A stretch of 64,000 nucleotides of DNA. Origin: Blastocatellia bacterium. Its GTDB lineage: Bacteria > Acidobacteriota > Blastocatellia > Chloracidobacteriales > Chloracidobacteriaceae. The first letter of the stretch is position 1, and each line of letters starts with the position of its first letter. Both the position numbers and the translations under genes were made by a program. Shown here piece by piece: positions 29,773 through 59,048 of the stretch. The notes beneath the pieces were generated by a model that made no database searches, was not told where the DNA came from, and saw only the letters and a list, made by a program, of their open reading frames with translations. Location of the stretch: contig JAIBAN010000029.1 in the NCBI GenBank assembly GCA_019695185.1, positions 1 to 64,000 of the forward strand, in the 5' to 3' direction.

Positions 29773-31569
29773 ATGAAAATTCGATTTTTATCGGTGTTGT
29801 GTGTGGGGTTGTTGGGGCTGGTTGGGGCAGTCGGGGGTGGTCTTCATTCGTTTCAAACCACAGCCCAAACCGGTCCCAACTTGGTTCCCGGTGGTGTACA
29901 GGGATTTTGGGTTCCCGCTGAGGAACCACAGGCAGACTGTATCGGTCCGGTTGAACGAGCTGCTTTGGAGCGAACGTTGGCCGAATATGAACGCCAATCG
30001 GGTTCCCGGTGGAACCCGCACCAGGCAACTCCCCAACCGTATCGGTTTCTGCCCCAGGCCGGAACGCTATGGCAGGATTTGCTGGTGAGCAATTTCGTTG
30101 ATTTGGATCCCGGTTCAGGTATCAGGGATTGGGATTGCACGGACTTCACCTACAATGGGCATCGTGGTCATGACATCAGTCTGCGCAGTTTCCGCGAACA
30201 GGAAATCGGCATCCCGGTTTTCGCTCTTCTGGATGGAAAAGTGGTGGATGCCCACGACGGTGAATTCGACCAGAACACGAGTTTTGACGACAACGCCCGA
30301 GCCAACTACGTGGTGCTGGACCACGGAAATTCCCAATTCACCTGGTATTATCATTTCAAGAAAAACAGCGTGGCGGTGAAAGTCGGCGACCAGGTCAAGG
30401 CCGGAACCCAACTCGGGCTTACCGGCAGCAGCGGATACAGTACCGGCCCGCACCTGCATCTGGAATCACGGTTTCGGGGAACCTGGTTTGAACCTTCCGT
30501 CGGGAGGTGCAACTCTGGAACCAGTACCTGGGTCAGCCAGACACCCATCCGGCGGGATACTTTTCTCTTTGATTTCTGTTTCAGTCGCCAGCCCTTCGGA
30601 AATGACGGCGGACTGCCGTTTGAAACAGTTCCCCGACTGGGAACTCTGGAGGCCGGAAACAGTCCGGTTTATTTTCGGATGCAGATTGGAAACCTGCCTG
30701 CCAACAGTACTTTCCGGGCCCGGTTTTTGCGTCCGGACGGTTCAACCGCCTTGGATTTTCCCGGCAGACTTGATTTCACCAACGGGAAAGCCTACCGGCA
30801 GGCGTATGCCTGGTTTTTCTTTAATTTTTCCCATACGGTGCCGGGAAACTGGAAACTGCAATTTGATGTGAATGCAACCACGGTGATTGAAGCACCCTTT
30901 ACAGTGGTGGCCAGTTCAAGTCAAGCCAGCAATCGTCCGCCAAATCCAATTACCGTCAAATTTGATCCGGCTGAGCCGACTCCGGGAGATGTGATTTTCT
31001 GCCGGGTTCAGGGCGGCCCGCTGTTGCGTGACCCGGATTATGATGTGGTTCGGTACCGGTATCAGTGGCGGCGCAACGGGACAATCATTCGGGAGGTGGT
31101 CAGTGCCGGTCTGGCTGATGCCCTGCCACGCAATGAAGCCGCTGCCACGGATGAATTAACCTGCACTGTCACGCCCCTGGATGACACCTTGGCGGGTCCT
31201 GGCGCAACCGCCACAACCACGTTTGGCAGCACGCCGCCGGATCAGGAACCTCCACAGGTCAAGGTGCTTGTCCCAAGCGGCGGCGAAACCTTCAAATCCG
31301 GCAGTTCGGTCACCATCCAATGGCAATCAACTGATAACCTGGGGGTGGTGCGGCATGATGTGCTGCTTTCAACCGATGGCGGTGGGACGTTTCCTCTTGA
31401 AATTACCACCGGTTTGGCTGGAAACACCCAACAGTTTCTCTGGACCCTGTCTGCCACAATCGCAAAAACCTCGCAGGGTAAAATCAGGGTGGTGGCAACG
31501 GATGCAGCAGGTAACCAGGGCCGGGGCGAGAGTGATGGCGCTTTCAAAATCAAAGTCAGGAAAAAATAA
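29773..31569 (+). CDS. Secreted M23-family metallopeptidase with C-terminal beta domains
   Basis: The 598-residue protein has a signal peptide (LSVLCVGLLGLVGAVGGG) and an M23/LytM domain with the zinc motif GHRGHDISL near residue 135 and HLHLE near 230, so the zinc site looks complete. Such enzymes cut peptidoglycan cross-bridges or glycine-rich peptides. After the catalytic domain come beta-rich modules: an Ig/Fn3-like part (VKFDPAEPTPGD) and a segment beginning GGETFKSGSSVTIQW, resembling secreted adhesion modules. ATG 29773 has a good ribosome binding site. A bidirectional hairpin follows the stop. Confidence 0.85.
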   Translation: MKIRFLSVLCVGLLGLVGAVGGGLHSFQTTAQTGPNLVPGGVQGFWVPAEEPQADCIGPVERAALERTLAEYERQSGSRWNPHQATPQPYRFLPQAGTLWQDLLVSNFVDLDPGSGIRDWDCTDFTYNGHRGHDISLRSFREQEIGIPVFALLDGKVVDAHDGEFDQNTSFDDNARANYVVLDHGNSQFTWYYHFKKNSVAVKVGDQVKAGTQLGLTGSSGYSTGPHLHLESRFRGTWFEPSVGRCNSGTSTWVSQTPIRRDTFLFDFCFSRQPFGNDGGLPFETVPRLGTLEAGNSPVYFRMQIGNLPANSTFRARFLRPDGSTALDFPGRLDFTNGKAYRQAYAWFFFNFSHTVPGNWKLQFDVNATTVIEAPFTVVASSSQASNRPPNPITVKFDPAEPTPGDVIFCRVQGGPLLRDPDYDVVRYRYQWRRNGTIIREVVSAGLADALPRNEAAATDELTCTVTPLDDTLAGPGATATTTFGSTPPDQEPPQVKVLVPSGGETFKSGSSVTIQWQSTDNLGVVRHDVLLSTDGGGTFPLEITTGLAGNTQQFLWTLSATIAKTSQGKIRVVATDAAGNQGRGESDGAFKIKVRKK

Positions 31570-31628: not shown

Positions 31629-33275
31629 TTATTCCTGATGAAACGAGCGATTCCGCAGGGTTCCGGCATTTTCTGCCAAAGCGCGGGCGGCCTGGACGGA
31701 TTCAACCGCTTTGATGGTCTGGATATCCGCTTGCAGGCGGACTTCCATTCCGGCTTCGATGCCAAAGGCGGCGGTCACCACATTTTCACGAATGACACTG
31801 CGCACGTATTCCAGGTTTTCAGCCACCTGGGCGTCCGTCAGGTGCAGGTCCGGATTTTCCTTGAGATAGGCATTAAAGGCCGCAATGACTTTGTCGTTCA
31901 CAACATATTCGTCAGCTTTGAGTCTATGACCATACTGGGTCTGGGTCACTCGAAAAGACTGCTGGTTGGGAACTTTCCCTCCCAAAAGCTGCCGCGAGAA
32001 GATGAATGCGGCATTCAGCAACCGGATTTGAACCGGTGTCAAAACCGGCTCTTTGATGGCTACGTCAGGAGTGATTCCGCCACCGGCATAGACCTTCCGT
32101 CCTGAATCGGTGGTTCGCTCCTCACCGGCTTTTTTGTACTCGTCTTTTTTGTGGGTGTAATCATAGAGCGAAAGTCCGGCATACTGACTTTGCACGCAAC
32201 GCCCACTGGGGGTGTAATATTTGGCCGTGGTGAGCGTCAGTCCCGACCCGAACGACAGGCGTTTGACCGATTGAACCAATCCTTTGCCAAAACTGGGTTC
32301 CCCGACAATCAGCCCCCGGTCATGGTCCTGAATGGCTCCGGCCACAATTTCAGATGCAGAAGCCGTTCCGCCATTGATGAGAACCACCAATGCGTCATTA
32401 TTCGGGGTTTGATTTTCCGAGAAATAATCGCGGGCTTCCCCGTCGGAAGTCCCCAGGCGGCCCTTTTGAGATAAAACTTTCAGGTCATGGGGCAGAAATG
32501 CACTCGCCACTTTGACTGCCTGGGTGAGCAGCCCACCTCCGTTTCCGCGCAAATCCAGAATCAGCGATTCCATCCCCTGCGATTGCAAGGATTTCAGCGC
32601 GGTCTGAAGTTCCTCATCTGTGGTGTGATTGAATCCGCCCAAGAGCGCGACATAACCAATCCCCGGACGAATCATAAAGGCATGCCGAATTGAGGGATAA
32701 GGCACCGCATCGCGGGCGATTTTGAAGGTCAAGGGCTTGGGCACTCCGACGCGTTCCACTGTAATTTCAACAAATTCGCCCTGAGGACCCCGCACTTCCT
32801 CGGAAACCTGCCCAGAGGACCAGTTGAGAGCGGATTTTCCGTTCACGGCCACAATGGCATCGCCATAGCGCAACCCTGCTTTTTCAGCCGGAGTGTCGTC
32901 ATTTGTGCCGAGGACAAACACCCGGTCACCCCGGCGTCCGATTGAAACTCCAATCCCAAAGTATTGACTGTGCTGCTGGCTTTGCAGTTCCTGAAATTCT
33001 TTGGCGTCGTAATAGTTGGAATGAGGGTCCAGGGAATGCAACATGCCCTGGATTGAGGCTTTGGTCAACTGGTCGGTGGCCACCTCGTCAATGAAGTGGC
33101 GATTCACCATATCCTGGGCTTCGGAATAGCTTTGCAAAACGTAACTGCCATTGGGAATGGCTGCGATGCCGGTACTGGCCTCGACCGGTTCCGATGGGCG
33201 TTGCACCCATTTCCCTCCGATGATGGCCGATGTACACAAAATTGCCAGCGCTATTGGCAACAACTTTCGCTGCAT
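31629..33275 (-). CDS. S41-family C-terminal processing peptidase with PDZ domain
   Basis: The 548-residue protein has a signal/anchor segment at the N-terminus, a helical cap (SIQGMLHSLDPHSNYY), a PDZ domain at about residues 95-185 (GVSIGRRGDRVFV, AEKAGLRYGD) and a protease core with the Ser/Lys dyad: Ser306 in GGTASASEIV and Lys331 in PSFGKGLVQ, 25 residues apart as in E. coli Prc. It should be active in the periplasm on C-terminal tails. The C-terminus has an extra 120 residues of helix. It is the intact counterpart of the degenerate copy at 43051-44340. Confidence 0.9.
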   Translation of the reverse strand: MQRKLLPIALAILCTSAIIGGKWVQRPSEPVEASTGIAAIPNGSYVLQSYSEAQDMVNRHFIDEVATDQLTKASIQGMLHSLDPHSNYYDAKEFQELQSQQHSQYFGIGVSIGRRGDRVFVLGTNDDTPAEKAGLRYGDAIVAVNGKSALNWSSGQVSEEVRGPQGEFVEITVERVGVPKPLTFKIARDAVPYPSIRHAFMIRPGIGYVALLGGFNHTTDEELQTALKSLQSQGMESLILDLRGNGGGLLTQAVKVASAFLPHDLKVLSQKGRLGTSDGEARDYFSENQTPNNDALVVLINGGTASASEIVAGAIQDHDRGLIVGEPSFGKGLVQSVKRLSFGSGLTLTTAKYYTPSGRCVQSQYAGLSLYDYTHKKDEYKKAGEERTTDSGRKVYAGGGITPDVAIKEPVLTPVQIRLLNAAFIFSRQLLGGKVPNQQSFRVTQTQYGHRLKADEYVVNDKVIAAFNAYLKENPDLHLTDAQVAENLEYVRSVIRENVVTAAFGIEAGMEVRLQADIQTIKAVESVQAARALAENAGTLRNRSFHQE

Positions 33276-36688: not shown

Positions 36689-36774
36689 CCGAATCCATGT
36701 GCGGCCTGTGAGCCATCGAAACACACATGGCACATCGCACCTGGGCAACGGCACATGATGTACCTCGCAAACTT

Positions 36775-37539
36775 ATGAACAAAAACACCTTATTTGTTGC
36801 GGTTACCTGTCTGGTGATTGGATTTGGCATCGGGTTCTATTGGACCAATTCACTCAATCGGGCAGTTATCAAAGAAGCCGAAGACAAAATCCGTGAAGCG
36901 CGGGCTGGCGGTGGGGCAGGAAATCAACCCACCGGAACCCCAGGCCAACCCAATGGTCAAATGCCGTCGGATGACATTCATTCCGGCATGGCCAACCCTC
37001 AGCAGGTCCAACAGGCACTTGATGAAGCCAAAAAGACCCGCGACAACTTTGAAGCCCAGATGAAAATCGGGATGTACCTGTATCAGGGGGCAAAGAAATT
37101 TGATGAAGCCCGTGAATGTTTCGAAGCCGCGCTCAAGCTGAAGCCCAATGATTACGACGCCACCGTCAATCTGGCGAATGTCTTGTTTGACGCCAGCAAA
37201 TTTGAAGAGGCCGGAACCTGGTACGAAAAGGCAATCAAAATCAAATCGGACGATGTCAATGTCAGGACCGATTTGGGCTTTACCTATTATTTAAGAAAGC
37301 CACAGCAACTGGGCAAGGCGATTGAGAATTACCGCCTGTCACTCAAGCTTGACCCAAACCATGTTCCGACCTTGCGGAATCTGGCGGTGGCGTTGCTGGA
37401 AAACAAAGAAATGGCAGCCGCCAAAGAGGTGACCGACCAGTTGGCCAAGGTTGACCCTAAGAATGACATTATTCCGAAATTGCGGGCCGAACTTGAAAAA
37501 GCACCCGGCGACACCAAGCGGGAGATTCCAACCCACTGA
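36775..37539 (+). CDS. Membrane-anchored TPR protein
   Basis: The 254-residue protein has one N-terminal transmembrane helix (TLFVAVTCLVIGFGIGFYW), a charged helix, a Gly/Pro/Gln-rich linker and about four TPR units (ARECFEAALKLKPNDYDA, AGTWYEKAIKIKSDDVNV, AIENYRLSLKLDPNHV). It should scaffold other proteins in the periplasm or at the inner membrane. ATG 36775 begins the membrane helix; the longer reading frame has no support. The position after cdsA suggests an envelope role, by inference only. Confidence 0.75.
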   Translation: MNKNTLFVAVTCLVIGFGIGFYWTNSLNRAVIKEAEDKIREARAGGGAGNQPTGTPGQPNGQMPSDDIHSGMANPQQVQQALDEAKKTRDNFEAQMKIGMYLYQGAKKFDEARECFEAALKLKPNDYDATVNLANVLFDASKFEEAGTWYEKAIKIKSDDVNVRTDLGFTYYLRKPQQLGKAIENYRLSLKLDPNHVPTLRNLAVALLENKEMAAAKEVTDQLAKVDPKNDIIPKLRAELEKAPGDTKREIPTH

Positions 37540-40643: not shown

Positions 40644-41290
40644 CCGACTACGCAAACAAATACGACGCCACACCGCTGGAAAGTATTCCAGTTTCTGATG
40701 GACTGATTGAAGCGGTGGGGAAGGGAAAACTGGAACAGGTGCGGGAACTCCTGGCCACCGGAGTTCCGGTCAACGGACATTTCAACGATGGCTACACGGC
40801 TTTGATGGCAGCCGCACATACCAATCGGCCGGATATTCTGACTGTGCTGCTTGAAGCCGGAGCCAATGCGGACCAGGCCGACAAATGCGGCATGACGGCC
40901 CTCATGTTTGCGGCGGAAGAAGGTGTGCTTGAAGCTGCCAAAGTTTTGCTCGAACGGGGAGCCAGCAGCAATGTCCGGATTCAGGATGAGCTTTCTCCTT
41001 ACTGGGGCTGGACGCCATTGATTTTTGCGGCGGATGCCGGTTCGCAGGAGGTGACGGACCTGCTCTTGAAACATGATGCCGACCCTGACATCTGTGATGG
41101 CGAAGGGGAAAGCCCGCTCATGAAAGCAGCAGTCGGTGGGCATCTGGCCGTGATTGAGTTGTTGATTTCCGCCGGTGCCGAGCTTGACCGAAAAAACGAA
41201 AATGGTGATACAGCCCTGCGGTTGGCTGATGAAATGGACCATACCGACATTGTGGATGCCTTGCGGCGGGCTGGAGCTTCGGAAAAATGA
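40640..41290 (+). CDS. Ankyrin-repeat protein
   Basis: The 216-residue protein holds about five ankyrin repeats (GYTALMAAAHTNRPDILTVL, GMTALMFAAEEGVLEAAKVL, GWTPLIFAADAGSQEVTDLL and two more), with no signal peptide. It overlaps both its neighbours by ATGA, so it is translated in step with the ABC exporter and the next gene. Ankyrin proteins act by binding other proteins; a link to the exporter is inferred from the overlap only. Confidence 0.85.
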   Translation: MTDYANKYDATPLESIPVSDGLIEAVGKGKLEQVRELLATGVPVNGHFNDGYTALMAAAHTNRPDILTVLLEAGANADQADKCGMTALMFAAEEGVLEAAKVLLERGASSNVRIQDELSPYWGWTPLIFAADAGSQEVTDLLLKHDADPDICDGEGESPLMKAAVGGHLAVIELLISAGAELDRKNENGDTALRLADEMDHTDIVDALRRAGASEK

Positions 41291-42069
41291 AGAAACAGCT
41301 TGAATTTGACCTGAATCATCCACAGTTGCAAAACCCTTGCCGGGTTGATTGGGATGAAATGGCTGGGGATGAACGTCAACGCCATTGCGCCCAGTGTGAC
41401 AAACAGGTCTACTGGTTTTCCCACATGAGCCAGAAGGAAATCCAAGCCGTCCTTAACCAAACAGGACCGAACCTCTGTGCCCTGATTGAAAAGCGGCCCG
41501 ATGGGACCATTGTCACGGCTGACCCACCGATTGCCTCCCGGTTTTTTTCTTTTCGGACTTCAAAATGGACCGCTGGGGTTTTCTCCCTGTTTTTAGGTTG
41601 GACGGCTGGTGCCGGTACCATTCAGGCAAACAGTCTTTCACCCGCGACACTGCAAGTGAATTCCACTGACCGGCAAAAAGATGAAACCAAACCCCAGGCC
41701 GGGTCACAAACTGGAATCAAAGGCTGGGTGAAGGATGCAACCGGGGCTTCCGTGGTCAATGCCACCGTGAGAGTGACAAGCCGTCAGACAGGGGTGGTGC
41801 GGGAATTCACTACTGATGAGGAAGGCTGTTTTGTGTTTCTCACCGACCAGCCCGGTTCATTTACCATTCGGGTTGAGGCAGTTGGGTTTGTCACATTCGA
41901 GAAAACAAAGGTTTCGGTCAAGGCCGGAAAACTTTCAACCCCCAGGCCTTTTGTGTTGCGCGTAGGCTCAACCGGTGGTTTTTGCTTTCTTGAGAAACCG
42001 AAGCCGTCTGACAACCTCAGCACTATCTTTTCGAATTCATTTTCAGGTTTCAAACGTCTGTTTTCCTAA
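41287..42069 (+). CDS. Carboxypeptidase-like regulatory-domain protein with Cys-rich head
   Basis: The 260-residue protein has a cytoplasmic-looking head (PCRVDWDEMAGDERQRHC, AQCDKQVYWFSHMSQKE) whose Cys pattern resembles a small zinc-binding domain, then a hydrophobic stretch (TAGVFSLFLGWTAGAGTIQ) and a carboxypeptidase regulatory-like beta domain (GIKGWVKDATGASVVNATV). This head-TM-beta plan is common in Bacteroidota and Acidobacteriota. It overlaps the ankyrin gene by ATGA. A close relative follows at 42121, apparently by duplication. Confidence 0.75.
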   Translation: MKKQLEFDLNHPQLQNPCRVDWDEMAGDERQRHCAQCDKQVYWFSHMSQKEIQAVLNQTGPNLCALIEKRPDGTIVTADPPIASRFFSFRTSKWTAGVFSLFLGWTAGAGTIQANSLSPATLQVNSTDRQKDETKPQAGSQTGIKGWVKDATGASVVNATVRVTSRQTGVVREFTTDEEGCFVFLTDQPGSFTIRVEAVGFVTFEKTKVSVKAGKLSTPRPFVLRVGSTGGFCFLEKPKPSDNLSTIFSNSFSGFKRLFS

Positions 42070-42120
42070 TGCCGTCACGCCCACAAGTTGCTTTTAGATT
42101 GTGAGTTCAGGAGGTTTCCT

Positions 42121-42972
42121 ATGCCGAAGCCACCTCCGAATATACGGGCACTCCGGGTCATTGCGCCCTGTACTGAAAATTGGGAAACCATGACCGGCGA
42201 CACGCGGCAACGATTTTGTGCCGAATGTGGAAAGCAGGTCCATAACCTCTCCGCGTTGACACCATCCGAGGCCCGCAGTGTATTGGTGCAAAACCCGGTT
42301 GGAGTCTGCACCCGCTTTGAACGGGATGAAGCCGGGGAAATCCTGTTTCAGCCGGAAGCAAGTTCTCAACGGCTGTTTACCCGACGTGCTTTGTCAGTGG
42401 CTGCGGGCGTCATGGGAACCGCATTAAGTCTTTCCAGTCCTACACTTGCCCAACAACCACAAACCGAAACCCGGCCCCGCCAAACTGCCAAGCCAGCTCA
42501 GTCAAATAAAAAAGATGCCGAACCTGTTGCTGTTTTGAAGGCAACGGTGATTGACCCGACCCAGGCGGTGATTGTGGGCGCTACGGTCATCCTCCGGTTT
42601 GACAAAACCGGTGAAATGCGCAAGGTCACCACCGATGAGGTCGGCAGCGTGACCATCCGGGGGCTTCAGCCCGGCACCTACTCACTTCGCATTGAAGCCA
42701 GAGGGTTTGTCTCCAGTGAAACCTCAAATCTGGAGTTTGCTCCAGGGGCTGAAAAAATCATTGAGGCGATGCTCAATGTGGGGGATGCTGGTGCGGACAA
42801 GATCAACGTGGGGGATGCCAATGCCGGTACGGTAAAAGTGAAAAACGCACCGGAAATGGGATTGACGGCGGAGGTTCCCTGTCCGCCGCCCAGGAAAAAA
42901 AGCGGGTTCTGGTATCAAATGGGGAGAGCCATGGCCTATCCATTTCGAGTGGTGGCCAGACGATTCACCTGA
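42121..42972 (+). CDS. Carboxypeptidase-like regulatory-domain protein, paralog
   Basis: The 283-residue protein has the same Cys-rich head as its upstream neighbour (APCTENWETMTGDTRQRFC, AECGKQVHNLSALTPSEA), a Tat/TM-like stretch (TRRALSVAAGVMGTALSLSS) and a beta domain (LKATVIDPTQAVIVGATVIL). ATG 42121 has a strong AGGAGG at 42109-42114, so it can be translated independently. It differs from its neighbour by a TM segment preceded by two Arg residues and by a Pro/Lys-rich C-terminal tail. The function is not known. Confidence 0.75.
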   Translation: MPKPPPNIRALRVIAPCTENWETMTGDTRQRFCAECGKQVHNLSALTPSEARSVLVQNPVGVCTRFERDEAGEILFQPEASSQRLFTRRALSVAAGVMGTALSLSSPTLAQQPQTETRPRQTAKPAQSNKKDAEPVAVLKATVIDPTQAVIVGATVILRFDKTGEMRKVTTDEVGSVTIRGLQPGTYSLRIEARGFVSSETSNLEFAPGAEKIIEAMLNVGDAGADKINVGDANAGTVKVKNAPEMGLTAEVPCPPPRKKSGFWYQMGRAMAYPFRVVARRFT

Positions 42973-43050: not shown

Positions 43051-44340
43051 TTAGGCAGCTTTCTTTTCCGCTGTTGGCGCACCGCCCTTGAGCAATTCCA
43101 GTGCTTTCTTCAACTGTTTGTCTTCCGGAGCCGGTTGCACCGCCGGCTTCTTATCCGTTTTGGATTTGTCCTTTTCAGTCTGGTTTTCCGGTGCCGGAGT
43201 GGCTGTTTCGTCATCTTCACCGTCGTCGGTGGTACCATCCGCAGCGGCAGCGGTTTCTTTCAACTCAACCGTCGGTTTCACTGATTCTTCCATAAAGGTC
43301 TTGCCACTGCCCGGAGCATAGCGGACTGTTGTCAGGAGCATCGCTCCGCCATCCGACAGTTTGACGAGTTCCTGTTCGGAGCCAGCGCCAAAGGTTTTTT
43401 CGCCCACCACTTCACCCCGTTTGGCGGCAATCACTGCGGCGGCAATGACTTCCGCCGGGCCTGCCGTGGAGGGGTTGGTCAGGACCACCAACGGTCCGTT
43501 GTAGGCCACCTTGTCAGCCTCGGCTTCAAAGGTCTTGGTGGTTTCATTTTTGCGGGCAATCGTGCGGGCCAGCGGTCCGTTGCCGACAAACAGATTGGCC
43601 ACGGCAACCCCTTCGCTCAATTCGCCATTGGCTGCCCCACGCAGGTCAAGCACGATTTTCTTGGCACCTTTTTTCACCAGGGCTGCCAGATTGGCTTTGA
43701 CTTCAGCGGCTTTTCCGGTCGCCAGTGTGGTGACTTTGATGTAACCGATTTCACCTTCCTCCATCCGGTTTTCAATCATGGGCTGGCCATAAGGGGCGCT
43801 CTTGATTTTGAGTTTTTCGGTTTTGCCCCGGCGGAGTACGGTCAGTTCGATTTCCTGCCCGTTGGTCAGGGCTGCAATCGTTTCCTGAATGTCATAGAGG
43901 CTGACATCACGGGTGGCCACCTGACCGACATATTCGACGAAATCCCCGTTCTTCAAACCAGCCGTTTCAGCCGGTGAACCTTTGAGCACGGCCACAGTGT
44001 ACAAAAAGCCGCCGACTTTGGAAAATGTCACGCCCAGCGGGTTTTTCTTGAGGGCTTCAGGGTTGTAGCGGGCCACCTGCTCGCGGGTCAGATAGGCGCT
44101 GTACGGGTCAAGTCCTTCAGCCAGGCCGCGCAAGGCTCCAATTCGGACCTTTTCCATATCAGGCTCGTCAACATAATCGCGGGTGATGTGTTTCAGCACA
44201 TCGCCAAAAATCTTGAGTTGTACATAGGGGTCGCCCTTGTCAAGAATGTTGCCTTTGGCAGAGAGCTTGCCACCGATAATGGCGTAAAAGGCGATTGCGG
44301 TTGAAAGACCAATCAATGCGAGTTTGGTGCGAATGGACAT
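43051..44340 (-). CDS. S41-family PDZ protein with both catalytic residues lost
   Basis: The 429-residue protein has a signal/anchor helix (LALIGLSTAIAFYAIIGG), a helical cap (GALRGLAEGLDPYSAY), a PDZ domain at about residues 100-180 and an S41 core. Aligned with the paralog at 31629-33275, the catalytic Ser is Gly294 (NPSTAGPAEVIA) and the Lys is Ala319 (KTFGAGSEQ), with the same 25-residue spacing. It should therefore not cut peptides but may still bind them. The C-terminal tail is Lys/Glu/Pro-rich. ATG 44340 has AGGAG between it and the repeat element, unlike most array-flanked genes here. Confidence 0.85.
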   Translation of the reverse strand: MSIRTKLALIGLSTAIAFYAIIGGKLSAKGNILDKGDPYVQLKIFGDVLKHITRDYVDEPDMEKVRIGALRGLAEGLDPYSAYLTREQVARYNPEALKKNPLGVTFSKVGGFLYTVAVLKGSPAETAGLKNGDFVEYVGQVATRDVSLYDIQETIAALTNGQEIELTVLRRGKTEKLKIKSAPYGQPMIENRMEEGEIGYIKVTTLATGKAAEVKANLAALVKKGAKKIVLDLRGAANGELSEGVAVANLFVGNGPLARTIARKNETTKTFEAEADKVAYNGPLVVLTNPSTAGPAEVIAAAVIAAKRGEVVGEKTFGAGSEQELVKLSDGGAMLLTTVRYAPGSGKTFMEESVKPTVELKETAAAADGTTDDGEDDETATPAPENQTEKDKSKTDKKPAVQPAPEDKQLKKALELLKGGAPTAEKKAA

Positions 44341-44352
44341 CGTAACTCCTGA

Positions 44353-44476
44353 AGTCTGAGGTCTGGGGTCTGGGGTCTGGGGTCTGGCTGGTTTTGAGAG
44401 TCGGTCAAGCGTAAGACAACGCTTGATAGCCAAATTTCTCAACCCCGGACCCTGAACCCCGGACCCTGAACCCTAT
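44353..44476. repeat. 7-mer armed element upstream of the degenerate S41 gene
   Basis: GGTCTGG units (44358-44388), a core containing a small inverted repeat (TCAAGCGTAAGACAACGCTTGA), then GGACCCTGAACCCC-type units up to 44476, at the end of the VWFA gene. Confidence 0.8.
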
Positions 44477-44477
44477 T

Positions 44478-45545
44478 TTATTGGGTTCCGAGCGAACTCG
44501 GAAAATAACCTTCTTTGGCGCGCACGTTGAGGTGCGGCAACCCTTTGGGGGGTTTGATTTTGACCTGGATTTTGCGCCATTTGGAATCATTGCCTTCGTA
44601 GGTGGGGGAATAACCCAGGCTGTATTGATGGCGCAGTTCCAAGCCGATACGGGTGATGACTTCCTGCATTTCCGTGTCACTGTTGGGAAAAAACGCCCGC
44701 CCGCCGGTCAGCCGGGACAGTTCTTCCAATATGGTTTGGCCCTGCATATCCAGGGTGGTGCCGGAAAAGACATTGGTAATCCCGATGGCATAAATCTGCA
44801 CATCGGTTTCCTTGACCAGTTGTTTCAGTTCCCGATAGCTGTAGCGGCTGTTGTTGTCCTGTCCGTCACTGATGAGCACCAGCGCGCGCCGGGTATGGCG
44901 ACCCTGGCGGACTTTTTCAACCCCGATATAGGCTGCATCAAAGAGCGCCGTCTGTCCTTTGGTTTCCGCCATCATGAGCAGGCTGGCCAGCCGTTCACCA
45001 TTGGGAGTGAAATCCGACAACAGCTTGGCTGTGCTATTAAAGCCCACCAGAAAAAACTCGTCTTCCTCGTGACAGGTATCGAGAAACCGGCGCAGGGCTT
45101 CCTGAGACCGGGCAATTCGTCCGCGCATACTGCCTGAAAGGTCAAAAATGACTCCTACTGAAATGGGGGCGTCGTCGTCGGAAAAATTTGTGATTTTCTG
45201 AAGGACTTTCTCGTCGTAAACCTCAAAATGTTCCTTTTCAAGTCCTGTCACAAAGCGGCCTGCACCGTCTGTCACCGTGACGGTCATGGTCACGAGTGAG
45301 GTATTGACCCGAACGACTGGAACATCCTCCTGGTTCTTCTTAGTTTCCGGAGGTGGCGGAGGCGGCGCATCGCTTGATTTATCGGTCTGGGGCTCTGTTT
45401 GGGGCTTGGCTGCCTCGGGTTGCTGCCTGAATCCAGCCGAACCCTGAGCCGGCTGTTCAAATGCCAGCATGGTGCTCCAAAAAACCGCTGTGCCCAGCAG
45501 TAAAAAGGTTAGGATTCGATACTGGAAAAATCTCCTGGTTCGCAT
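44478..45545 (-). CDS. Exported VWFA domain protein (VWFA-related Acidobacterial domain type)
   Basis: The 355-residue protein has a signal peptide (ILTFLLLGTAVFWSTMLA), a Pro/Gln-rich linker, a beta segment (VNTSLVTMTVTVTDGAGRFV, EHFEVYDE) and a VWA domain with a complete MIDAS: DLSGS, the Thr of KGQTALFD and SDGQDN. It matches the family known as 'VWFA-related Acidobacterial domain' proteins, which support the lineage call. Such proteins bind ligands by metal; the partner is unknown. It is divergent from the SpoIIE phosphatase gene. Confidence 0.85.
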   Translation of the reverse strand: MRTRRFFQYRILTFLLLGTAVFWSTMLAFEQPAQGSAGFRQQPEAAKPQTEPQTDKSSDAPPPPPPETKKNQEDVPVVRVNTSLVTMTVTVTDGAGRFVTGLEKEHFEVYDEKVLQKITNFSDDDAPISVGVIFDLSGSMRGRIARSQEALRRFLDTCHEEDEFFLVGFNSTAKLLSDFTPNGERLASLLMMAETKGQTALFDAAYIGVEKVRQGRHTRRALVLISDGQDNNSRYSYRELKQLVKETDVQIYAIGITNVFSGTTLDMQGQTILEELSRLTGGRAFFPNSDTEMQEVITRIGLELRHQYSLGYSPTYEGNDSKWRKIQVKIKPPKGLPHLNVRAKEGYFPSSLGTQ

Positions 45546-45628
45546 ACAATGTGCTCCTTGCCGATTGCAGCACAATCTATAGGTGTTAAAGAAGCAACGA
45601 GGTGCCCGGTGTATTTAGATGAGAAGTT

Positions 45629-45808: not shown

Positions 45809-48535
45809 ATGAAAGTTCCCCATTGGGTATTGTGGGTTGTGACACTCGGTTCCCTGCTGTACCTGACACAGAAAATCATATACCTGACGGACGTCACCTT
45901 TCGTTGGACCCCGCTTGGTTTTGAGTATGTCATCAATCAGGCAGAGGGGGAGTTGCGGGTTTCCGCGCTCGACTCCAACGGCCCGGCGGCCAACAGCGGT
46001 TTGGCTGTGGGGGATGTGCTGGTGACTTCGAATGGCACGAATTTCAGTGGGTTGAATGAATTTGCAGTTCTGGTGGGCAAGGCGGAACATTCCCGGATTT
46101 TGCTGCTTCAGGCGCGCAAGGCTGATGGTTCGGTGCGGCCCTGTCAAATCAACCTGCCCCCTCCTTTTTCAAATGGCGGCTATCCGCTGAATCTGTTTTT
46201 TTGGGCTTCGCAGGTTTTCATTGGCATTTTATGTACGGGTATTGGGTTGACCATTCTCTGGCAGCGTTGGTCGGATGGAACAGGCCGGTTGGGCGGTTTT
46301 TTCTTTCTTTCGTTTGCCGTGTTATTTGACCAGCCGTTTTTTTATGTATCGGAATATGCTCGACCTTTTATGTTGCTTTACCGCCCGCTTTTAGCGCAGA
46401 CCGCCGGTCTGTGGGCGTTCGCTTTTTTCTCTGAATTTCCTGCCGCTTCGGCTTTCGCCACCCGGTGGCGCATCACCCGGCATTATTATTTAGCTGCTTT
46501 GATTGTGGTGTTGCCGGTGGCAATTTATGCAAACCTCTGTTTGTACTATTCCTTTGATTTGGCTGCTCAATTGTTTCCCTGGCAGGGCTTTCTTGATTCC
46601 GCCCGGTCCTTCTTTCTTTTCATTGGCTTTATCCTGACCCCGCTCAATTTTATTCCGGGCATTCGCGGGAAACTGGACCAGGACCAGTCCCGCCGATTGC
46701 GGGTGCTCTCTTTTGGTGCGGTTTTTGGCTTCAGCCCTTTGCTCCTGTTGTCTTTTATTAACTATGTTCATCATGGCCGGCTGGTACTTGAGTCCTATCC
46801 ATCCTGGGTGTGGGCGGTTGCCATTGGCTTGAACGCGCTATTTCCGATTACCTTTGCCTATACGGTGGTCAAGCATCGGGTTTTGGGAATCAAACAGATT
46901 CTGCGCCGCAGTGTGCAATATGCCTTCTGGTCCCATTCCTATTTGTTGATTGAAGTCGGGTTGCTGGTCTTTTTGCTGAAGTATCCGGTGAAAACCCTGC
47001 TGTTGGTGAGCATGGAGTTCATGGGAATGTATCCTGAGCCAAATACCTGGAGGTTTTGTCTCTATGTGTTGGGCGGAGGTGGTTTGCTGGGGATGTTGCG
47101 GGTGAATCCCCGTCTTCAGGCTGCGATTGACCGGGCTTTTTTCCGGGATGCCTATAACGCCCAACAGGTTTTGGGTGACCTCAGCCGGGCGGTTCGCAAT
47201 TTGACCAAAGCGGAGGATGTACTGCATCAGGTTGCCGAACAGATTGGGCTGGCCTTGCATGTCAACCGTATCGGCTTTTTCGTTCATCCTTCTTTGCTTG
47301 AAACGGTGCCGGAAACAGTTCCGGCGGCCAGCCATTTTTGTGGCTATCTGTGCCACTTTGACGGGACACCGCCCGGTTTGGTCGAAAGCCCAGAGCAGTT
47401 TCCCCTCACCGGTCTGGTGATGGAATGGCTTGAGACGGATGTGTTTCCCCGTGAGGTTGAGTTTGCGGCGGCTGATTCCTGGTTGGCTGAGAAACTGGCC
47501 GGGAACCCTGACTTGGGCTCCTTCCAGGATTTGCAAGTCGAATGGCAGCACCTGCAGGCGCTGGAGGCGTGTGTGTTGGTACCGCTTGTGACCTCCAACC
47601 GGGTGATGGGGTTTATCAGTTTGGGGCCAAAACTTTCTGAAGAGCCTTATACAAAAGAAGACAAGGAGTTATTAATGGCAGTGGCGGAAGCCACTTCGCT
47701 CAGGCTGGAAAATACCCAACTGATTGGCCGCATGGCGGAGGAAGCCACCCTGAAACGTGAACTGGAAATCGCCAAGGCCATGCAACAAAGCCTTTTGCCG
47801 GCCCGGCATCCGCATCTGCCCGGTTATGAGATTTCCGGGTTTTCCACGGCTGCCAATGATGTCGGTGGTGATTACTTTGATTTTTTCCTGGCAGGCCCAG
47901 ACCGGTTGGCCATTGCAGTCGGAGATGTGACCGGTCATGGGGTTTCCTCCGGTTTGCTCATGGCTTTGGCCAAAGGTGGATTTTTGAATCAGGTTTCAAG
48001 CAATCATGAGCCGCAATCGGTCATGTTTGCCATGAATAACCTGATTCACAGCAGTGGCAGTCGCCGTAACCTGATGACCTTTGCCTATGCAGTTCTGGAC
48101 GGAAAAAACCGAACCCTTCAATTTTCCAACGCCGGACACCCGCATCCATACCGGTACATTGCTGCCCACGGCCAGGTGGAACCGCTGGAAATGGCTGCCT
48201 ATCCTTTGGGGGTTCGCAAAAACACCAATTACGAAACTCTGACCCTTCAACTGGAGCCAGGTGATGCTGTAGTTTTTTACAGTGACGGAATTGTTGAGGC
48301 GCAAAATGAAGCAGGTGAACTTTTCGGGTACGAACGACTGGAGGCCGCTATCGCACTCCATGGAGCCAAGCCCGGTGCAACCCTGCGGGAAGCCTTGCTG
48401 ACCACAGCCCAGGAATTCGTGGAAGGGGTCCCTTTTTCCGATGACCTGACGGTGGTGGTAGTGCAGGTCCAATTGTCAGAGAAAGAACAGAAAGCAGTTC
48501 CAATCCGTGAAGAAGCCATACAAAATACTGGCTGA
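45809..48535 (+). CDS. Membrane PP2C/SpoIIE-family phosphatase with PDZ and GAF domains
   Basis: The 908-residue protein has an N-terminal TM helix, a PDZ-like module (GPAANSGLAVGDVLV near residue 55), about eight further TM helices, a GAF-type domain around residues 440-620 and a SpoIIE/PP2C phosphatase domain at the end (QQSLLPARHPHLPGYE, NDVGGDYFDF, GDVTGHGVSSG, YSDGIVEAQNE). It probably dephosphorylates an anti-sigma factor antagonist in a partner-switching system. No such partner genes are next to it. A PDZ joined to a multi-helix sensor is an uncommon arrangement. Confidence 0.85.
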   Translation: MKVPHWVLWVVTLGSLLYLTQKIIYLTDVTFRWTPLGFEYVINQAEGELRVSALDSNGPAANSGLAVGDVLVTSNGTNFSGLNEFAVLVGKAEHSRILLLQARKADGSVRPCQINLPPPFSNGGYPLNLFFWASQVFIGILCTGIGLTILWQRWSDGTGRLGGFFFLSFAVLFDQPFFYVSEYARPFMLLYRPLLAQTAGLWAFAFFSEFPAASAFATRWRITRHYYLAALIVVLPVAIYANLCLYYSFDLAAQLFPWQGFLDSARSFFLFIGFILTPLNFIPGIRGKLDQDQSRRLRVLSFGAVFGFSPLLLLSFINYVHHGRLVLESYPSWVWAVAIGLNALFPITFAYTVVKHRVLGIKQILRRSVQYAFWSHSYLLIEVGLLVFLLKYPVKTLLLVSMEFMGMYPEPNTWRFCLYVLGGGGLLGMLRVNPRLQAAIDRAFFRDAYNAQQVLGDLSRAVRNLTKAEDVLHQVAEQIGLALHVNRIGFFVHPSLLETVPETVPAASHFCGYLCHFDGTPPGLVESPEQFPLTGLVMEWLETDVFPREVEFAAADSWLAEKLAGNPDLGSFQDLQVEWQHLQALEACVLVPLVTSNRVMGFISLGPKLSEEPYTKEDKELLMAVAEATSLRLENTQLIGRMAEEATLKRELEIAKAMQQSLLPARHPHLPGYEISGFSTAANDVGGDYFDFFLAGPDRLAIAVGDVTGHGVSSGLLMALAKGGFLNQVSSNHEPQSVMFAMNNLIHSSGSRRNLMTFAYAVLDGKNRTLQFSNAGHPHPYRYIAAHGQVEPLEMAAYPLGVRKNTNYETLTLQLEPGDAVVFYSDGIVEAQNEAGELFGYERLEAAIALHGAKPGATLREALLTTAQEFVEGVPFSDDLTVVVVQVQLSEKEQKAVPIREEAIQNTG

Positions 48536-56191: not shown

Positions 56192-56702
56192 GTAGAACCT
56201 CCACTATGGTTGGTAAGTTGAAAACGATGCCAAAGACCGGGCAGTCGGAAAGGTACTGTGCAAATGGGCGATGAGAAGTGCGCCGCTGCCAGGGGTCGTT
56301 TTCTGTGGTTGTTTTCGTTTGAAAAACTTCATTTCGGAATCAAAAAACTGCACCAAATCGAAAAACCGGCCATATTTGCACAAAAAGCCGAGTAAAACAC
56401 GCCGGCTCGCCGGATTTCAGGCCGATGGACAGAGAAACAGACAGGATTGCGATTTTGGGCAATCCCTCTGATAAGCAAAACGTGATTGCATGTTGCCTGT
56501 GAAATAATGAAAGAAAAACCGGCCCGATTCTACTGGTTTTATGAAAACTTGACCACTTTCGTTTTTCATCAAAGGCGAGCGGAGGTGTTTTTACGGTTTT
56601 TTGTGATAGGTTGAGAGCTGAATCGTAAACTTACCGTCTTCACAAGCGTTTGGCTGTCAACCACACAAGTGAAATTATATGTTGATTGAAGGAGTCTGTC
56701 GT
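56192..56702. other. Long spacer without a gene
   Basis: The 510-bp spacer separates two divergent genes. It is A/T-richer than its surroundings, contains no 7-mer array and no convincing gene or RNA. Both promoters should lie here; no clear pair could be fixed. Confidence 0.5.
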
Positions 56703-59048
56703 ATGCCGAGCATCAAATCCGCTGCCGCCTGGGCAGTTGCGTGTGCTTTGTCGCTGGTAGTTTCAGGAACCTGGGGCCGGGGACAAACCCAGCCCAAAAG
56801 CTATGTGCAGGCACCGTCGGCCAATCCTGCTCCGCAAAACCTTGATTTTGAAGACGGCGAGCCTGGAAAACAACCGCCCGGATGGAATGGGACGACTGCC
56901 GTCATTGGGTACCCGGCCACGATTTCAACCGAAAAGCCGAAAACCGGAAAACAATGCTTGGTATTGGTTCGCAAACCGGACCAATCGCCGGAACCAAATC
57001 AATTTGCGAATGTTATGCAGACGGTTGATGCCACACCCTACCGGGGGAAACGGGTCCGGTTCCGGGCCGCAGTCCGGTTGAAGGCACAGGATTTCAACAG
57101 CCGCGCTCAATTGTGGCTGCGGGCGGATTTGCCCAATCAGAAGGCGGGCTTTTTTGACAATATGGGAGACCGCCCGATTATCACCGGCACCTGGCAATCC
57201 TTTGAAATTGTCGGGGATATTGATCCAACAGCAGAAAAACTGAATTTTGGGGTGATTAGTTTTGGAACCGTGTCCACCTATCTGGATGAAGTTTCTTTGG
57301 AGGTGCTGCCAACGGTTCCTTCACCGCTCGAACCAGCCCGCCCACTGACTGCCCAGGGATTGGCCAACCTGACTGCGTTCACCCGGCTGATGGGATACGT
57401 CCGGTTTTTCCACCCCAGTGACGAAGCTGCTGCGGTTGACTGGGACCGCTTCACGGTCGAGGGAATGCGCAAGGTCGAAGCTGCAAAAAATTCCGCTGAA
57501 CTGATTGCCCGGTTGCATGAACAGTTCGGGCCCATTGCCCCGGCGGTCCAGGTTTTTGCTACCGGCAAGCCTCCGCAACTGCCCGCCGGCCTGACTCCTC
57601 AAGCTGAAGCCGCCCAGCTCAACGTCATCAAATGGAGCCATCGTGGCATTGGACTCAAAAAAAGCAACCAGAATGTATATGCCAGTGACCGTGCCAAAGG
57701 AGCGGTGGTAAACGGACAGATGCCTGAAGGATTTTCCAATCCGGCCAAGCCTTTTGAGGCCGACCTGGGTGGTGGGGTGTCCTGCCGGGTTCCACTGGCA
57801 CTTTGGGTTGACGCGAGCGGAACCCTGCCTCATGTCGAAAAAAAGGCCAACCCCGTAGCCACTCTCTCCGAACCCCTGATGGAACTGTATTCGGCCAATG
57901 ACCGGGCGACCAGATTGGCGGATGTGGCACTGGCCTGGAATATTTTTCAGCATTTCTATCCGTATTTTGACGTGGTGGCAAAAGACTGGTCCCGCCAGTT
58001 GCCGGAACTGTTGCGGGCGGCTGCCACCGACAAAGATGAAAAAGCCTTTTACAACACCTTGCGGCATTTGATGGTGATGCTCGAAGACGGACATGGCGGA
58101 GTCAGTTGGCGCAACCTTGCCAGCGGATTTACGCTCCCGTTTTTGTGGGACCAATTGGATGGAAAACTGGTTCTCATCCATGTTGCAACCGAAGGTGCAG
58201 CCGGGCTGAAACCAGGGGATGAAATTCTGGAAATCAATCAAAAGCCGGCTGCCGAGGCTCTGAAAGCAGCGGAATCGTTAACCTCATCAGCGACTCCGCA
58301 ATGGCGGTTGTTTCGGGCGTTGCGAATGTTGCGTGTCGGGGACAAAGACACAGAAGTGACCCTCAAGGTGCTGCCTTTTGGTGAAAACCTGCCCAAGACC
58401 ATAACCATCAAGCGGACCTTACCGGAGAGCCAGGTGACGGAAACCCGCCCGGAAAAAACCGCCGAACTCAAACCGGGAGTTTTTTACTATGACATCGGGC
58501 GGGCATCCGACGCTGATTTCGCCGCATTGCTTCCCAAATTGGAAAAAGCCAAAGGAGTGATTTTCGACTTGCGCGGCTATCCGGTTGGTTCGCCCGTCTT
58601 CCTGCAACATTTGGCGGATATACCGCTCCAGTCAGCCCGATGGAACATTCCGCTGGTTTCCACTCCCGACCATGTGAACATGACTGCTTTCGAAACCGGA
58701 GGCCGCTGGAGTCTCGAACCCAAAAAGCCAAAAGTGGGCGGGAAAATCGTGTTTTTGACGGATGGACGGGCAGTGAGCTATGCGGAATCAGTGATGGGAA
58801 TTGTGGAAGCCTACAAGCTGGGTGAAATTATTGGTTCACCAACTGCCGGGACCAACGGCAACATCAATCCGTTTACCCTTCCAGGCGGATTTACTTTGTA
58901 TTGGACCGGGATGAAAGTCCTCAAGCATGATGGGTCACGTCACCACGGGGTCGGGATAGCCCCGACCATTCCGCTCCAGCCAACGCAGCAGGGTGTCGCT
59001 GCCAAACGGGACGAACTGCTTGAAAAGGCACTGGAAATCATTCATTGA
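56703..59048 (+). CDS. S41-family peptidase with N-terminal carbohydrate-binding-like domain
   Basis: The 781-residue exported protein has a signal peptide (CALSLVVSGTWGRGQ), a jelly-roll-type domain at about residues 35-200 (NLDFEDGEPGKQPPGW, YRGKRVRFRAAVRL), a linker with helices and a C-terminal S41 peptidase core with a PDZ-like part (GLKPGDEILEINQKPAAEAL) and the catalytic Ser in DGRAVSYAESVMG. GSPTAGTNG follows. ATG 56703 has AAGGAG nine bases upstream; ATG 56679 lies before that site and is less likely. It is the third S41 protein of the window and unlike the other two in build. Confidence 0.85.
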   Translation: MPSIKSAAAWAVACALSLVVSGTWGRGQTQPKSYVQAPSANPAPQNLDFEDGEPGKQPPGWNGTTAVIGYPATISTEKPKTGKQCLVLVRKPDQSPEPNQFANVMQTVDATPYRGKRVRFRAAVRLKAQDFNSRAQLWLRADLPNQKAGFFDNMGDRPIITGTWQSFEIVGDIDPTAEKLNFGVISFGTVSTYLDEVSLEVLPTVPSPLEPARPLTAQGLANLTAFTRLMGYVRFFHPSDEAAAVDWDRFTVEGMRKVEAAKNSAELIARLHEQFGPIAPAVQVFATGKPPQLPAGLTPQAEAAQLNVIKWSHRGIGLKKSNQNVYASDRAKGAVVNGQMPEGFSNPAKPFEADLGGGVSCRVPLALWVDASGTLPHVEKKANPVATLSEPLMELYSANDRATRLADVALAWNIFQHFYPYFDVVAKDWSRQLPELLRAAATDKDEKAFYNTLRHLMVMLEDGHGGVSWRNLASGFTLPFLWDQLDGKLVLIHVATEGAAGLKPGDEILEINQKPAAEALKAAESLTSSATPQWRLFRALRMLRVGDKDTEVTLKVLPFGENLPKTITIKRTLPESQVTETRPEKTAELKPGVFYYDIGRASDADFAALLPKLEKAKGVIFDLRGYPVGSPVFLQHLADIPLQSARWNIPLVSTPDHVNMTAFETGGRWSLEPKKPKVGGKIVFLTDGRAVSYAESVMGIVEAYKLGEIIGSPTAGTNGNINPFTLPGGFTLYWTGMKVLKHDGSRHHGVGIAPTIPLQPTQQGVAAKRDELLEKALEIIH

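Follow-up and report, generated by a model that had tools for sequence, protein, structure and literature searches.

One gene in the 64,000-nucleotide stretch of DNA analysed here (the window) encodes a protein with the architecture of a C-terminal processing peptidase (CTP) that is almost certainly catalytically dead, judging by its active-site residues. The best explanation for this pseudoprotease, called pseudo-CTP below, is that of a CtpA-derived, membrane-anchored periplasmic oligomer, whose task would be to scaffold or regulate peptidoglycan remodelling without proteolysis; we give this reading a probability of about 0.6. The features are listed in Table 1.

The reading frame runs on the minus strand from an ATG at window position 44340 to a stop at 43051 (429 aa). 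It can be extended in frame to a TTG at 44442; the alignment of the orthologs begins at the ATG. The preliminary description, made from the letters alone, had proposed that the PDZ domain and the S41 fold are kept, and Pfam matches both: Peptidase_S41 (PF03572) with E 1.5e-32 and 112.9 bits against a cut-off of 24, and PDZ (PF13180) with E 7e-8. The regions through which CtpA oligomerises are likewise kept in sequence and as predicted helices. With the NCBIfam model of C-terminal processing peptidases (TIGR00225, prc), the pseudo-CTP scores 176.5 bits, below the curated cut-off of 218.6. An AlphaFold2 model built from 41 sequences (pLDDT 88.9, pTM 0.81) shows the domains in the order known from CtpA, together with a helix at the N-terminus and a confidently predicted one at the C-terminus. 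Residues 3-29 are probably a membrane anchor or an uncleaved signal, a topology that we infer. The charged tail noted earlier is also present: residues from about 361 to 402 are charged and of low confidence in the model, and are followed by the confident helix, whose motif is of the type of the CtpA C-terminal helix. The last residues are placed without confidence. An Rfam search of the window gave no match.

Table 1. Features of the pseudo-CTP locus, in window coordinates.
Feature	Position	Strand	Basis
Pseudo-CTP gene (S41/PDZ pseudoprotease, 429 aa)	43051..44340	(-)	ORF and translation, Pfam, orthologs
N-terminal hydrophobic helix, residues 3-29	44254..44334	(-)	Helix in predicted model
N-terminal dimerisation-type helical region, residues 38-84	44089..44229	(-)	Alignment to P. 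aeruginosa CtpA from residue 38
PDZ domain, residues 102-181	43798..44037	(-)	Pfam; Arg170 kept
S41 core, residues 198-359	43264..43749	(-)	Pfam
Gly294 codon (GGC), position of nucleophile Ser	43459..43461	(-)	Alignment
Ala319 codon (GCT), position of general-base Lys	43384..43386	(-)	Alignment
Gln323 codon (CAG), third residue of Ser-Lys-Gln triad, retained	43372..43374	(-)	Alignment
C-terminal helix, residues 408-418, motif D-x-QLKKALELL	43087..43119	(-)	pLDDT about 85-93
C-terminal KKAA	43054..43065	(-)	-AA ending recurrent in family
VWA-domain gene (TIGR03436), co-directional upstream, in place of EnvC	44478..45575	(-)	NCBIfam
Catalytically intact CTP paralog P0002, 548 aa, Ser306-Lys331-Gln335	31629..33275	(-)	Pfam, alignment

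The first description had read Gly294 and Ala319 as occupying the positions of Ser306 and Lys331 of the paralog, with a spacing of 25 residues in both proteins. This reading was confirmed, and it holds in an alignment of 117 family sequences (the triad-intact L142 and L151 set aside) with 94 canonical CTPs. The nucleophile column of the family contains Gly in 102 sequences, Asn in 8, Ser in 6 and Gln in 1. The residues in the Lys column include Ala (36), Arg (16) and Met (13); L141 is the only sequence with Lys there. All six Ser carriers lack the Lys, and the active Ser-Lys pair is thus found in 0/117 sequences; among the canonical CTPs, Ser and Lys are each present in 93/94. The third triad residue, Gln, is retained in 103/117. 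Reduction to below 50% identity left the picture unchanged (Gly in 37/42). Counted over 115 non-redundant homologs, the dyad substitution recurs with L142 and L151 as exceptions; a third relative, L212, also has Ser-Lys-Gln intact. The loss goes beyond the dyad: the PDZ hinge aromatic is absent too, as is the Asn-Pro-Gly-Gly loop. In the substrate loop (D-x-R-x-N-P-G-G), N236 is replaced by V, S, T, C or A in most family members, and the Asn is found in 5/117 family sequences versus 94/94 canonical CTPs. A search of the open-access literature gave no comparable family of S41 pseudoproteases in bacteria. Outside the phylum, a protein of an alphaproteobacterial MAG (L214:5001-6053) has Arg/Glu/Glu in place of Ser/Lys/Gln and a canonical Asn-Pro-Gly-Gly loop; it is apparently an independent dead CTP.

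A different catalysis relying on another set of residues, or the binding of a small ligand, could also have replaced proteolysis. IRBP (retinol-binding protein 3), a vertebrate retinoid carrier, uses the S41-related fold without being a peptidase and matches the pseudo-CTP weakly in sequence (E 1e-6 to 1e-9), as a separate loss of catalysis. Such an activity would fit the conservation of Gln323, Thr292, Glu297, Asp232 and Arg234 around the former active site, but these residues may be structural, because they are mostly conserved in canonical CTPs too. No conserved alternative nucleophile and base were seen in the family, whose Lys column shows no constraint and whose substrate loop has degenerated, and we regard this alternative as improbable.

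The state of the PDZ domain suggests what may have been kept. The hinge aromatic before the PDZ carboxylate loop is F/Y in 92/94 canonical CTPs and is absent in the family; in the pseudo-CTP it is lost at residue 99, just outside the domain. L142 and L151 also lack it, despite their intact triads. The PDZ Arg (Arg170 in the pseudo-CTP) is retained in 92/117 family sequences. In the H. pylori CtpA, Phe105 and Arg162 help to bind the substrate C-terminus, and mutating either impairs activity (PMC12749690). We mapped the equivalents of these two residues onto the family by sequence motif: that of Arg162 is kept as Arg170 in the pseudo-CTP, while that of Phe105, like the dyad, is absent. With the hinge aromatic gone and the Arg kept, binding is plausible without the canonical activation switch, and the domain looks able to bind and unable to run that switch. 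A family-specific pair, Ser/Thr then Lys/Gln/Arg at residues 107-108, followed by Gly-Tyr at 111-112, suggests an altered PDZ specificity. The second strand is changed by Lys/Gln/Arg108, so that the domain may have another specificity or may no longer bind.

The pseudo-CTP is neither an isolated case nor, by its pattern of substitution, a gene in decay. A single full-length ortholog was found in 100/104 genomes of the class (those at least 90% complete), covering 41/41 genera, with frames open in nearly all. In the phylum, 103/199 genomes have a match at E 1e-40, and 15 genomes without one were searched with the family profile. Most of these 15 contain a second, short CTP homolog beside a longer canonical one. 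The dyad is absent in ten of the short homologs (L169, L182, L183, L185 and L187-L192); it is kept in L186, which groups with canonical CTPs. In G058, G061, G076 and G089, the S41 proteins that were found were all either canonical or more distant. The dN/dS ratio is 0.03-0.18 for 11/12 close pairs, and 0.51 for the divergent pair L129/L132. Homologs span the phylum, taken to be Acidobacteriota on the strength of an Acidobacteria MAG (L212) related to L142 and of the VWA family of the upstream gene (both described below), and the loss is old and under purifying selection. Sequencing error was rejected as the source of the substitution, which recurs in non-redundant homologs of a protein with orthologs in nearly all class genomes. 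A decaying pseudogene, or a recent inactive duplicate without function, would account for the loss of catalytic residues by itself. This is hardly credible given a single copy with an open frame in almost every class genome, dN/dS values mostly below 0.2, conserved motifs specific to the family and a fold predicted with confidence.

For the ancestry of the family we used a tree of 91 rows from which the dyad columns had been removed before inference. All canonical CTPs, from many phyla and including the P0002 type of Acidobacteriota, split from the family with an SH-aLRT of 100. The three triad-intact, EnvC-linked relatives (L142:6039-7235, L151:6243-7436 and L212:1643-2800, the last from an Acidobacteria MAG and 73% identical to L142) nest within the family, adjoining L141 (Gly-Lys). 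One loss event for all inactive members was rejected (p-AU 0.013), while a grouping of all inactive rows except L141 was not (p 0.36), in a tree whose deep branches are weak, whose long branches meet and whose groups were named after viewing it. At least two losses, or one loss and one regain, are needed on this topology. That the trio has kept the ancestral triad would be simpler than a regain of all its motifs, again subject to the weak deep branches. Whether the double loss forms a stable clade had been posed as a check: it does mark a stable family of great age and conservation. The family is likely, with good confidence, derived from a CtpA-type protease, and we read it as a CtpA gone dead because several of its distant members share the envC-CTP-yibQ layout of the active P. 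aeruginosa CtpA.

The active paralog had been taken as the reference for the missing dyad. It is triad-intact, matches Peptidase_S41 and PDZ in Pfam and reaches 272.3 bits with TIGR00225, but it is a distant relative and no recent sister copy: the pseudo-CTP is about 28% identical to its best paralog. A recent duplication of the paralog gene was rejected, the family branching apart from it. CTPs of the P0002 type have PDZ and S41 domains and an intact Ser-Lys-Gln, occur in the same genomes as the family and group with canonical CTPs of other phyla. The genome contains 16 S41 loci. A third S41 protein in the window (56679-59048, 789 aa, S41 domain at 58503-58973) keeps the Ser, has Thr in the Lys column and belongs to a different S41 subgroup. 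A gene for an M23 peptidase of the secreted type (29773-31569), which has a long extension at its C-terminus, is convergent with the active CTP gene.

Foldseek gave the CtpA proteins of H. pylori and P. aeruginosa as the nearest solved structures. The best match is H. pylori 9jr1 (E 2.8e-32); 9ku3 is the Ser/Lys/Gln triple mutant of the same protein. The P. aeruginosa CtpA, a CTP-3 group protease activated by LbcA, aligns to residues 38-422 of the pseudo-CTP with E 1.3e-36 and has the same fold and order of parts (N-terminal dimerisation helices, PDZ, cap, S41 core and C-terminal helix). Its envC/yibQ gene context is also found in distant family members. In the family, by contrast, the Ser, the Lys, the NPGG loop and the hinge aromatic are lost, conservation has moved to the anchor and dimerisation parts, and a -KAA tail is common.

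This shift was measured on equal-sized, 50%-nonredundant samples of the family and of canonical CTPs. Conservation in the family exceeds that in canonical CTPs at the anchor (+0.48 bit), in the dimerisation region (+0.37) and in the C-terminal helix (+0.17), and falls below it in the core (-0.53 bit), the cap and the post-core part. As a whole, the family sequences are nevertheless the more varied set (mean pairwise identity 0.31 versus 0.35). The N-terminal dimerisation region is its best-conserved part. P. aeruginosa CtpA dimerises through its N- and C-terminal regions (PMC8764530). The shift matches the expectation for a protein that retained binding and assembly and dropped catalysis.

The C-terminus itself is also unusual. 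An -AA ending is found in 57/115 family members versus 5/613 conserved neighbouring ORFs, and -KAA or -RAA in 43/115 versus 0/613. Only 1/79 outgroup CTPs end in -AA, and in non-redundant sets the counts are 25/42 for the family versus 1/49. Mapped on the tree, the ending needs 16 changes, and was therefore gained or lost often rather than being a single frozen relic. CTPs recognise substrate C-termini via their PDZ domain, and the small nonpolar -AA/-KAA terminus is for this reason a candidate PDZ ligand, which we offer as a hypothesis.

The same features bear on the binding role proposed earlier, with the active protease as partner. The pseudo-CTP could be a regulatory subunit, decoy or inhibitor of an active CTP of the paralog type, either co-assembled through the N-terminal helices or offering its own C-terminus to the active PDZ. 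This would fit the conservation of the dimerisation region, the highest of any part, and the substrate-like small nonpolar tail of half of the family, as well as the strong-scoring active P0002-type CTP in 17/18 tested genomes. However, an active CTP in nearly all genomes tested makes co-occurrence with the pseudo-CTP uninformative, and active CTPs are also present in G058, G061 and G076, where no pseudo-CTP was found. The low identity between the two proteins also counts against it, and no conserved linkage was seen, the two genes lying about 10 kb apart in the window. We consider this regulatory role possible but rather unlikely. The retained PDZ and oligomerisation parts would fit a binding role; as for the partner, the neighbourhoods favour peptidoglycan enzymes instead.

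Among distant family members, an EnvC-type gene (coiled-coil and M23) lies upstream in 24/60 and 6/11 loci, and a YibQ-type deacetylase gene downstream in 8/60 and 7/11, respectively. Examples of both neighbours were confirmed by Pfam/NCBIfam. Among 80 collection matches, nearly all of them canonical CTPs of other phyla, EnvC is upstream in 42 and YibQ downstream in 27. P. aeruginosa has an operon envC-ctpA-PA5135, in which PA5135 is orthologous to YibQ/SddA, a peptidoglycan deacetylase of E. coli (PMC12569750). In addition, a PBP1a-type gene is downstream of the family member in 12 loci, and some members are divergent from ruvX-mltG. Factors of peptidoglycan metabolism thus recur next to the gene.

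EnvC cannot be the partner throughout the family, since EnvC linkage was found in 0/40 loci of the window's own class and the search of the window's genome gave no clear EnvC-like gene. In this genome EnvC was consequently rejected as partner. The gene upstream of the pseudo-CTP matches TIGR03436, an acidobacterial VWA family. Its link is weak because a VWA gene is upstream in only 5/40 class loci, and its product was rejected as partner on this count.

Other genes of the window were noted around the locus. LbcA, the known CtpA adaptor, is a TPR protein. A membrane-anchored TPR protein encoded at 36727-37539 is a possible LbcA-like partner; similar proteins occur near the pseudo-CTP in four other loci only (L074, L086, L099 and L103), and what recurs there is the N-terminal motif. 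Adjoining the pseudo-CTP gene are genes for two similar proteins in tandem (41287-42069 and 42088-42972), which have a carboxypeptidase-regulatory-like domain and, at the N-terminus, a Cys-x2-Cys motif. The gene at 45809-48535, divergent from the VWA gene, encodes a SpoIIE-type phosphatase that carries a PDZ-like segment at its N-terminus and a GAF region; a relative of it lies near the pseudo-CTP of L067.

Among the possible mechanisms we favour the putative role as a peptidoglycan scaffold, at odds of even or slightly better. In Acidobacteriota, an EnvC-operon CtpA-type protease would have lost proteolysis. From CtpA biology, its descendant would sit membrane-anchored in the periplasm as a dimer or higher oligomer. 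Its PDZ domain, to judge from the retained residues, may still bind protein C-termini above a groove that cannot cleave them. Gene context, which bears on function indirectly, points to EnvC-type amidase activators, the YibQ/SddA deacetylase, MltG and PBP1a as candidate clients. Active CtpA limits cell-wall hydrolases through their degradation (PMC11021448). The dead version may instead hold, localise or shield peptidoglycan-remodelling proteins, while the cutting would be done by the P0002-type CTP. A more elaborate form, in which an oligomeric PDZ hub controls remodelling and -KAA acts as an internal or trans PDZ ligand gating the hub or the active CTP, is speculative. Rhomboid pseudoproteases (iRhoms) offer an analogy in mode of working; they belong to another protease family and fold, and we claim no homology. 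The iRhoms are conserved dead proteases that act through client binding (PMC6451368).

A conserved cell-wall protease that is catalytically dead across most of a phylum would mean that binding and cutting have become separated in nature among CTPs. The triad-intact L142, L151 and L212 would provide a built-in comparison for the dead family. S41/PDZ matches in Acidobacteriota that are annotated by Pfam alone would be wrongly called peptidases.
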